DNA of 51,682 nucleotides, taken from assembly GCA_028228555.1 (NCBI GenBank), contig JAOJBP010000010.1:1-51682 (forward strand). The letters are read 5' to 3'. This stretch comes from Candidatus Thioglobus sp. (GTDB lineage: Bacteria > Pseudomonadota > Gammaproteobacteria > PS1 > Pseudothioglobaceae). A program made the translations under genes and the position numbers. Below are positions 82-6,642 of this stretch, piece by piece; within the stretch, counting starts at the first letter, position 1; each line of letters begins with the position of its first letter. The notes below the pieces were generated by a model, which ran no database searches, was not told where the DNA came from, and saw only the letters and a list, made by a program, of their open reading frames with translations.

Positions 82-2547
82 ATGACAAACTCAACAGAGA
101 AACTTTCTGGACGTGAGAGGTCGATTCTTAGACGTCAGCAAATGTCTAAAACAGGTTCAGCCGGTATGAAAAAAGCTGGTCAAGTGAAACCTCGAGGACG
201 ACAATCAGCTGTAGTGATAAATCCGAATGCTGGTCAAGCAATTCAGTCAAATGCAGCTGCAGAAAATACTACAGATAACGAATCTAATAACATAAATACT
301 CAAGTGTTAGAAAATGGTCATTTTGAGTATTGTTGTGATGATTGCAAGGAAAAGGATTTAAAAGAAACATGCTCTCCTTGCGATCAAAAACAATCCGCAC
401 AAGATGGCGATGTTAAAATAGATGAGATTTGTGAGTTAGTTGATTCCGGCACATCAAATGCAAGTACTTCTGTTAGAGCTTTTTGTAGAGATAGACGAAG
501 ACAAATGTCTAAAACTGGAAAACAAGCATTACCAGGTAAGATTGGTAGAGAAGCAAGGAGATCTAGAGTTAACAATAATAAAAACTCTATGTCAGGCCGT
601 GATTTAGCTAAAATTAATCGTGAAGAAAGGTGTACAGTTGGTCGTGGTAATAAAGAAGCTTGTCGCCCAAGTGGTAGAATTAGACCAGGTTCTGCACCAT
701 CTAAGGTCGAACTAGGTACTACACTAGCAGGACAATCTGTTAGTGGAACACAGGTCGAGCAAACAGAAAAAATTACAGGTAATGAAGTAGGTGGTTGTAG
801 AGCAATTACAGGTACTGAATACATAGGTACTGAACAATTTACACAATTATGTTCAACAACACCTAAAGCTAATGAGCCTAAGGTTGGTAAAACTCAAACT
901 ACAAAAGGCCAGACAATGACTGGTACTTTAGTTGAGGCTACTTCTGAAATTACAGGTACAGAATCGGGCTCATGTAAAGTAATCACGGGTAATGAGTATC
1001 TAGGTTATGATCATTATTCAAATGCATGCGATAATACAAATGCTGTTTCATCGCACCATAAGGTAATGTCAACACCATCAAAAAAAAATTTAGCAATAAC
1101 TGGAGCAGACGAAGCTAGAGCCAATTCAACAACCGGTTCAGAATCAGGAGCTGGTCATGCAATTACAGGCTCTGATTATTCAACAGCACCTTTTAGTCGC
1201 TCAAATGCTGGCGCTACAAAAGTTGATGTTAACCATACAAATAAAGGCTCTGTAATATCTGGCGGTGAATTATCATCTCCACTTGCGGTTACTGGTGATG
1301 CTCAAGATTCATGTGAAAGAGTTACTGGCACTGAATATGTATCCAATGAAAGATTTGTATCTAATTGTGGTACTCAGGCTCCATTGACGCCAAGTAAAGT
1401 GTCTGTTGACAATACTCAAAAGGGTATGGCTATTTCAGGCAATATGATGGATAGAGATGAGAAAGTAACAGGCAATGAACCTGGTACATGTCAGCGTGTA
1501 TCTGGAAGTCAGTATGATAGTTCTGCAAATAGAGGAGTATGTGACCAGCGTTCAGATAAAGTAAATCAAACGCACACTATTACTGGTAATCGTGTTTCTG
1601 GTAGCGAGGTTAGTGGCTCCCCAAAGCTAACAGGTGACGACTATGGCATGTGCCTGGGCGTCACCGGTAATGAGTACGTTAGCAAGGAAAGCTTTGAGCA
1701 AAGGTGTTCTTTTGTTCCGATGGCAGCTAAGTATAAAGAAACAGTGAGTCATACTTGGAATGATCAACAAGTTTCTGGCGTCCAATTAAGTCAATCTGAA
1801 ATAGTGACGGGTGACGAAGTTGGAAGTTGTAGTCTAATCTCTGGAAGCAGTTATAGGTCTAGAGAAGAAATGAGCAAGTTTTGTGATACGTCAGCAGTAG
1901 CTGCAAGTGAGCAAAAAATGAGAAAAACACATACAATGCAATCAATTAGTGGAAACACACCTTCTGAAGATAAGAGATTTTCAGGCAACTTTAATAAAGG
2001 GTTTGGACAGTCAATTAGTGGTACCCCTTATTTGAAAGATCATAATAAATCTGAACAGTTTGATGCAAATTTCTCTGTTCAGACACCAGCAAGATCTGCT
2101 TTTGAGAATAATTCTGAACGAGTTCATGATAGTGTATTTGGAGTAAATTCAAGAATTACAGGTGCTATGTCTAAATCACAAGGTGTGATGACTGGTACGC
2201 CAGAATTTAGACATCCATTAGAAGAGGTTCAGCAACAAGTTGTCCTTTCTCCAACTGAACCTACAAAAGTGGTAACTGGCGAAGGTAATGAAACTGGAAC
2301 AGATGTTACTGGCGATAATTGGTCGCGTAGTGGTCAAATTACTGGCACTGAAGGTATGTTCTCTTCAAATAGAAATGATACGCAAAAGGGCAATCCAAAT
2401 AATGATCATAAAATTGGTGCCCATGCATTAAGAGATAAAGAGGTTGTTGCTATTGAAGGCCCTAAAATTACTAATGGTAGCGGCGCTGGAAATGATTCAG
2501 ATAGTAGCTCTTCAAGAGTAACCTTATCTGGTGGCGCACGCGGTTAA
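82..2547 (+). CDS. csoS2: CsoS2, carboxysome assembly scaffold protein
   Basis: Intrinsically disordered scaffold of the alpha-carboxysome. In the known family the N-terminal repeats bind Rubisco and the middle and C-terminal parts contact the shell. At 821 residues it is within the family range. Three N-terminal basic repeats are visible (near residues 9, 137 and 173; the first two carry RRQQMSKTG or RRRQMSKTG). Seven middle repeats follow between about residues 215 and 605, with paired V/I-T/S-G motifs and Cys; the third lacks Cys. A C-terminal region with further ISGT and TGT motifs ends in a short Ser/Gly-rich tail. The start is set by AAAGG 10 bases upstream. A run of nine A at 1080-1088 is a possible -1 frameshift site (see findings). 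csoSCA follows after 9 bases. Confidence 0.97.
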   Translation: MTNSTEKLSGRERSILRRQQMSKTGSAGMKKAGQVKPRGRQSAVVINPNAGQAIQSNAAAENTTDNESNNINTQVLENGHFEYCCDDCKEKDLKETCSPCDQKQSAQDGDVKIDEICELVDSGTSNASTSVRAFCRDRRRQMSKTGKQALPGKIGREARRSRVNNNKNSMSGRDLAKINREERCTVGRGNKEACRPSGRIRPGSAPSKVELGTTLAGQSVSGTQVEQTEKITGNEVGGCRAITGTEYIGTEQFTQLCSTTPKANEPKVGKTQTTKGQTMTGTLVEATSEITGTESGSCKVITGNEYLGYDHYSNACDNTNAVSSHHKVMSTPSKKNLAITGADEARANSTTGSESGAGHAITGSDYSTAPFSRSNAGATKVDVNHTNKGSVISGGELSSPLAVTGDAQDSCERVTGTEYVSNERFVSNCGTQAPLTPSKVSVDNTQKGMAISGNMMDRDEKVTGNEPGTCQRVSGSQYDSSANRGVCDQRSDKVNQTHTITGNRVSGSEVSGSPKLTGDDYGMCLGVTGNEYVSKESFEQRCSFVPMAAKYKETVSHTWNDQQVSGVQLSQSEIVTGDEVGSCSLISGSSYRSREEMSKFCDTSAVAASEQKMRKTHTMQSISGNTPSEDKRFSGNFNKGFGQSISGTPYLKDHNKSEQFDANFSVQTPARSAFENNSERVHDSVFGVNSRITGAMSKSQGVMTGTPEFRHPLEEVQQQVVLSPTEPTKVVTGEGNETGTDVTGDNWSRSGQITGTEGMFSSNRNDTQKGNPNNDHKIGAHALRDKEVVAIEGPKITNGSGAGNDSDSSSSRVTLSGGARG
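1080..1086 (+). other. Candidate -1 frameshift slippery heptamer in csoS2
   Basis: The heptamer A AAA AAA lies in the correct phase for tandem -1 slippage, inside a run of nine A at the junction of the second and third middle repeats. A -1 shift here would add about ten residues and stop at TAG 1116-1118, giving a product of about 345 residues instead of 821. Halothiobacillus CsoS2 is known to be made in two lengths by programmed frameshifting. No strong stimulatory stem at the usual 5-9 nt spacing was seen, and A-runs are common in AT-rich genes, so the call is tentative. Confidence 0.4.
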
Positions 2548-6402: not shown

Positions 6403-6642
6403 ATGAGTTCATTAGAAGATAAATTATTAGAAAGTATTAATAAGTCCGATAAGGTTGTTAATGTAGCTAAAAAACCTGCAGCTAAAAAACCTGCAGCTAA
6501 AAAACCTGCAGCTAAAAAACCTGCAGCTAAAAAACCTGCAGCTAAAAAACCTGCAGCTAAAAAACCTGCAGCTAAAAAACCTGTAGCCAAAAATCCTACA
6601 GTTAAACTTGCGAGTGAGTCGCAACGCGTTTGGCCAGATTAA
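6403..6642 (+). CDS. Lysine/alanine/proline repeat protein, probable alpha-McdB
   Basis: A 79-residue, very basic, low-complexity protein directly after the McdA-like ATPase. An N-terminal segment of about 21 residues (MSSLEDKLLESINKSDK...) precedes nine 5-residue repeats of AKKPA type, the last two degenerate (AKKPV, AKNPT). It ends in SQRVWPD. Alpha-McdB proteins are small and disordered, sit next to mcdA and have an invariant tryptophan near the C-terminus, so position and the WPD end support McdB. The lysine repeats resemble histone-H1-like tails and could bind DNA or acidic partners; that is inference. AAGGAG at 6391-6396 supports the start. Confidence 0.72.
   Translation: MSSLEDKLLESINKSDKVVNVAKKPAAKKPAAKKPAAKKPAAKKPAAKKPAAKKPAAKKPVAKNPTVKLASESQRVWPD
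6466..6600 (+). repeat. Tandem 15-bp repeat within the McdB-like gene
   Basis: Nine units of 15 bp, each encoding A-K-K-P-A. The first seven (6466-6570) are identical, the eighth (6571-6585) differs by one base and the ninth (6586-6600) by four. The identity at third codon positions shows recent slippage-driven expansion rather than protein-level selection alone. Unit number is likely to vary between strains and may be collapsed in assemblies. The unit length is a multiple of three, so changes keep the frame. Confidence 0.97.

Follow-up and report, generated by a model that had tools for sequence, protein, structure and literature searches.

The alpha-carboxysome scaffold protein CsoS2 is known in two lengths, which are made by means of one ribosomal frameshift. 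In Halothiobacillus neapolitanus the short form, CsoS2A, comprises 570 residues, of which the final three derive from the -1 frame (PMC5009743). Among the -1 heptamers measured in E. coli, C_CCA_AAG has the highest efficiency, 54% with a strong stimulator (PMC4066793). Recoding of another kind occurs in dnaX of T. thermophilus, where transcriptional slippage on a run of nine A's (A9) takes place at about 50% and gives mRNAs in all three frames, with about half of the product being short; nine A's is a run length known for efficient polymerase slippage (PMC1088944, PMC5009743). Apart from a general recoding review, our literature search turned up no publication that deals with csoS2 in Thioglobus or with transcriptional slippage in csoS2.

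We analysed a stretch of 51,682 nucleotides from a Candidatus Thioglobus sp. genome (contig JAOJBP010000010.1), referred to here as the window, which opens with csoS2; csoSCA and the shell genes come next. The gene and the elements of its canonical frameshift site are located as follows:

Positions 82 to 2547, forward strand: csoS2, encoding the alpha-carboxysome scaffold protein of 821 residues (Pfam CsoS2_M PF12288, E=2.5e-146; NCBIfam CsoS2 models; H. neapolitanus CsoS2B in the PDB, E=4.9e-123).
Positions 1620 to 1626, forward strand: slippery heptamer C_CCA_AAG at residues P514-K515 in M repeat 6, the same residue pair as P566-K567 of H. neapolitanus.
Positions 1633 to 1665, forward strand: stem-loop in which GGTGACG (1633-1639) pairs with CGTCACC (1659-1665) over 7 bp, after a 6-nt spacer downstream of the heptamer (about -20 kcal/mol, z = -3.5).
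Positions 1635 to 1637, forward strand: TGA in the -1 frame, three codons past the canonical site, predicted to end a 518-residue CsoS2A-like form in ANR.

Residues P514-K515 align on P566-K567 of H. neapolitanus CsoS2B (PDB 9ly8, 869 residues), and since CsoS2A of that organism has 570 residues with the last three from the -1 frame, its slip falls at residue 567, the same place as in the window. Pairing of the stem is complete in 12 of 12 sequences (84/84 cells, 100%), the folding z-scores at the site range from -3.0 to -3.7, and the closest relative (locus L028) has one compensatory change from G-C to A-U across the two arms (GAC to AAC, GGC to GGT). The top island of codon conservation in csoS2, at 1612-1665, contains the slip site, and the element nnC CCA AAR nnn nnn GGT GAY ... 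GTC AC recurs in 15 of the 64 csoS2 genes compared, GC-rich ones included. The segment at 1620-1665 is very probably the known proteobacterial csoS2 -1 ribosomal frameshift element, predicted to give a 518-residue form without M7 and the C-terminal domain; its position and signal can be read from the sequence, and we infer its function from H. neapolitanus. The initial annotation had overlooked this signal and had suggested that the csoS2 frameshift, if real, lies at a different place from that in Halothiobacillus. Because the canonical element is intact, the A-run described below is ruled out as a replacement for the known site, and would be a second site rather than a relocated one.

Several further features of csoS2 and the carboxysome locus were observed. 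Between two species of one genus, G293 (L031) keeps C_CCA_AAA, whereas G452 (L281) reads TCT CCA AAG and has lost the canonical heptamer. Four csoS2 genes without that heptamer (L052, L054, L056 and L059) carry at codons 512, 520, 515 and 554, respectively, the near-identical sequence A_AAT_TTT TGCC(A/G)G GCTGAAGACG(C/T)AGC, where the -1 frame is closed by TGA at the fifth codon; this may be an alternative frameshift element of another csoS2 clade. Another codon-conservation island of the window gene lies at 1903-1942 (AGT GAG .. ATG AGA .. CAT ACA .. CAA). At 6403-6642 of the window, after a parA-like gene, an ORF of 79 residues consists of about eight AAKKP repeats and ends in RVWPD, which has been reported as the motif that closes alpha-McdB at its C-terminus (PMC11321042); it probably encodes a minimal, lysine-rich McdB for carboxysome positioning.

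The A-run lies about 40% along the csoS2 ORF, 180 codons upstream of the canonical slip site, and is accompanied by nearby stops in both other frames:

Positions 1080 to 1088, forward strand: run of nine A's, TCA AAA AAA AAT, encoding S333 K334 K335 N336 where M repeat 3 begins; genomes G026, G001 and G010 share the A9 with the window genome.
Positions 1116 to 1118, forward strand: TAG, the first -1-frame stop after the run (A10 mRNA or -1 slip), giving a predicted product of 345 residues.
Positions 1091 to 1093, forward strand: TAG, the first +1-frame stop after the run (A8 mRNA), giving a predicted product of 336 residues; the +1 stop is at the same place in all four relatives.

The context reads ...CCA TCA AAA AAA AAT TTA GCA..., and counting from the ATG at 82, position 1080 is a third codon base, which puts A_AAA_AAA at 1080-1086 in phase. 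Past the run the -1 frame encodes KFSNNWSRRS before it reaches the TAG, and the 345-residue product would comprise the N-terminal region and M repeats 1 and 2. In all four csoS2 genes of the family the -1 frame closes after 10-12 codons and the +1 frame after 3. Direct reading of the gene confirms the initial annotation on the run, the in-phase heptamer, the -1 stop, and the length and content of the 345-residue form. It does not bear out the proposed division into Rubisco-binding and shell-binding halves: M1 and M2, both retained, have the [IV]TG motifs that belong to the shell-binding middle region, and because the middle repeats of CsoS2 bind shell protein too, the short form would not cleanly separate the two activities (PMC11365436).

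A single coding A9 in the window is by itself unremarkable, and chance suffices to explain it. When synonymous codons are shuffled in the window's 45 longest ORFs, 1.66 coding A9 runs are expected against one observed (2.9 against one for A9 and T9 combined), and dinucleotide shuffling of the whole window yields 7.6 A9 on both strands. The shuffled expectation is in line with neutral retention, in which conservation of the SKKN peptide in an AT-leaning genome brings A9 about incidentally, any slippage there amounts to noise and the canonical M6 frameshift alone is relevant. The probability of AAA for lysine, about 0.66 in these genes, points the same way: with AAA the more frequent lysine codon and the KKN peptide conserved, the amino acids account for part of the retention of the run. 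It also counts against selected slippage that the truncation products leave no new conserved coding sequence.

What neutral retention explains less well is the persistence of the run between relatives, for which the initial annotation had proposed a comparison of related genomes. Only 4 of 83 Thioglobaceae genomes contain csoS2 (the window genome, G026, G001 and G010), and all four have A9, reading TCA AAA AAA AA(T/C) TTA in each. Where both sub-clades have the same amino acid in csoS2, they share its codon only 52-56% of the time, so synonymous sites have largely been reset. When codon quartets were shuffled among columns of the same amino-acid pattern, which preserves the protein and the relatedness of the sequences, a shared nine-A run appeared in 0.55% of 20,000 trials (P = 0.0055), a result of moderate strength, since it rests on four sequences in two related pairs. 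The A9 block is the second or third island of synonymous conservation in csoS2 (scan with 9- to 25-codon windows), and the serine codon TCA and the codons TTA, ATA, ACT, GGA and GCA after the run are likewise kept in the four genes. Retention of A9 in csoS2 is therefore not expected by chance or from amino-acid need, with the moderate strength that four sequences allow, and we regard neutral retention as possible but rather doubtful.

The window's csoS2 shares 85% identity with its counterpart in G026 (L028), which belongs to another genus, and only about 70% with those of two members of its own genus (70% for G001, L029; 69% for G010, L030). Together with the presence of csoS2 in so few of the genomes, this likely means that the carboxysome operon has been transferred horizontally or lost patchily in the family.

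In the csoS2 genes compared from outside the family, the site has no such A-run: A9 is missing from H. neapolitanus and from the 11 other genes with a canonical site, one of which, that of G293, has A7. We treated the A7 of G293 (GGA AAA AAT) as a chance occurrence, since its sister G452 reads GGA AAA GAT. In three GC-rich genomes of one genus (L036, L038 and L039, codons 292-294), csoS2 has an in-phase A_AAA_AAG (CCA AAA AAG) at the start of M1, after which the -1 frame shuts within about 12 codons; confined to one genus and located at a different place, it was rejected as a counterpart of A9.

Mutability is expected of homopolymers this long (PMC1088944), and A9 could in principle be a phase-variation tract, in which replication slippage turns full-length CsoS2 off in part of the population. 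Homopolymer lengths in a single draft assembly can err, yet four independent assemblies agree on the same in-frame length of nine, and loss of CsoS2 would abolish carboxysomes; we consider phase variation very improbable.

The run was also set against other A9 and T9 runs. The window genome has 24 coding runs of this kind in ORFs of at least 100 residues, and the tolerance of such runs by about 24 genes again speaks against selection for slippage. Within the surveyed stretches of the four csoS2-bearing genomes, which do not include two long G010 A-runs or four to five G001 loci, only csoS2 (4/4) and dnaX (three; the G010 contig ends before the site) keep A9 in at least three genomes. At the surveyed loci, no other non-dnaX coding A9 of the window genome is A9 in G001 or G010, which argues against neutral retention. 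In serS (L124, L167 and L193) a run in an RKKN stretch is A9 in two genomes and A8 in the third. Since a truncated serS product would serve no purpose, the case shows that A9 can be retained without function and that a lysine-rich peptide alone can hold the run; serS supports neutral retention to that extent and serves as a control for it.

In dnaX (loci L133, L210, L163, L221-L250 and L296-L315) the run directly follows domain III (GAA AAA AAA ACN) and is exactly A9 in 44 of 50 Thioglobaceae, the others having A10 (four), A12 (one) or no run (one). In nearly all of them each off-frame meets a stop a few codons on, and there is little 3' structure. In G031, G014, G116 and G055 the run shifts tau out of frame, which means that tau itself would need slippage, an arrangement known for dnaX genes whose tau needs recoding (PMC3711429). 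Thioglobaceae probably use A-run slippage at dnaX, and the family-wide dnaX A9 offers a natural positive control for csoS2, making the idea testable in existing metatranscriptomes.

The initial annotation had interpreted A9 as a programmed -1 ribosomal frameshift site at A_AAA_AAA that produces the 345-residue form only. The heptamer is in phase in all four csoS2 genes, and tRNA-Lys(UUU) is the only lysine tRNA among the typed tRNAs (5 of 35 tRNA hits were not taken individually), as in E. coli with its shifty A-rich lysine sites (PMC5009743). Against a ribosomal mechanism, no stem downstream of A9 is conserved in the four genes (z from -0.05 to -2.0, no shared fold), and no Shine-Dalgarno-like helper is conserved among them either, AAGG being present upstream only in the window and L028. 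The strong motif of this type is A_AAA_AAG, A_AAA_AAA being reported as much less shifty (PMC5009743), and heptamers without stimulators reach only 2-10 times background in E. coli (PMC4066793). Ribosomal slippage, moreover, needs neither exactly nine A's nor a kept +1 stop. We consider programmed ribosomal frameshifting at A9 unlikely, and a weak ribosomal -1 component, given the missing stimulators, is possible. What stands of the initial annotation is a real, clade-conserved and slippage-prone A-run that would cut the protein after M repeat 2; the relocated site, the ribosomal mechanism and the clean split are not supported.

Transcriptional slippage is favoured instead, because no stem or Shine-Dalgarno sequence is conserved and both off-frames close quickly. 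As in dnaX-type slippage, at least nine sense-strand A's lie within an ORF, off-frame stops are near, and conservation exceeds amino-acid need; the stimulatory stem or Shine-Dalgarno sequence that adjoins the heptamer in csoS2-type programmed -1 sites is missing. Three features suggest that RNA polymerase is the slipping enzyme: the run has exactly nine A's, both other frames are closed, and dnaX carries A9 across the family. With nearly even odds, we take the A9 at 1080-1088 to be most likely a selected site of RNA polymerase slippage of the Thermus dnaX kind, second to the canonical one. Our overall explanation, to which we assign a probability of about 0.47, is that csoS2 of carboxysome-bearing Thioglobaceae has two slip sites, the canonical ribosomal one and the A9 for the polymerase.

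We hypothesize that RNA polymerase adds or drops A's at 1080-1088, which would give a share of mRNAs with 8, 10 or more A's. Ribosomes would translate these variants as usual and reach a stop within 12 codons, yielding proteins of 336 and 345 residues that hold the Rubisco-binding N-terminal region and M1-M2 only, and in-frame indels (A6, A12) would still yield the full-length scaffold. We speculate that the short fragment could connect Rubisco within the carboxysome or moderate how many shell anchors there are. Two recoding mechanisms acting serially in csoS2, polymerase slippage at A9 and ribosomal -1 slippage at C_CCA_AAG, might provide at least three lengths (821, 518 and 345/336 residues) in a fixed proportion by which Thioglobaceae tune the assembly of their carboxysomes, a proposal with the chances leaning somewhat against it. 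If true, one gene would house two recoding mechanisms, and a third, shorter CsoS2 arising from polymerase slippage would represent a new means of setting scaffold composition in a carbon-fixing organelle.

Three described systems bear comparison with this locus. Like the H. neapolitanus csoS2 frameshift, the window element at 1620-1665 has its slip site at the same residue pair (P514-K515 versus P566-K567), three -1-frame residues before the stop and a strong stem 6 nt downstream; the difference lies in A9, located 180 codons upstream in M3 and without a stem, which H. neapolitanus does not have. The -1 frameshift in E. coli dnaX (A_AAA_AAG with a Shine-Dalgarno sequence and a stem) resembles A9 in its in-phase A-rich heptamer and truncated product, but A9 has no conserved stimulators of either type and the last base of its heptamer is A, not G. 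The T. thermophilus dnaX run shares with A9 of csoS2 exactly nine sense-strand A's inside one long ORF, early closure of both off-frames and a product that is a shorter form of the same protein. It differs in that it belongs to another gene and lies at seven-eighths of its ORF rather than at about 40%, and in that slippage at the csoS2 run is predicted from sequence.
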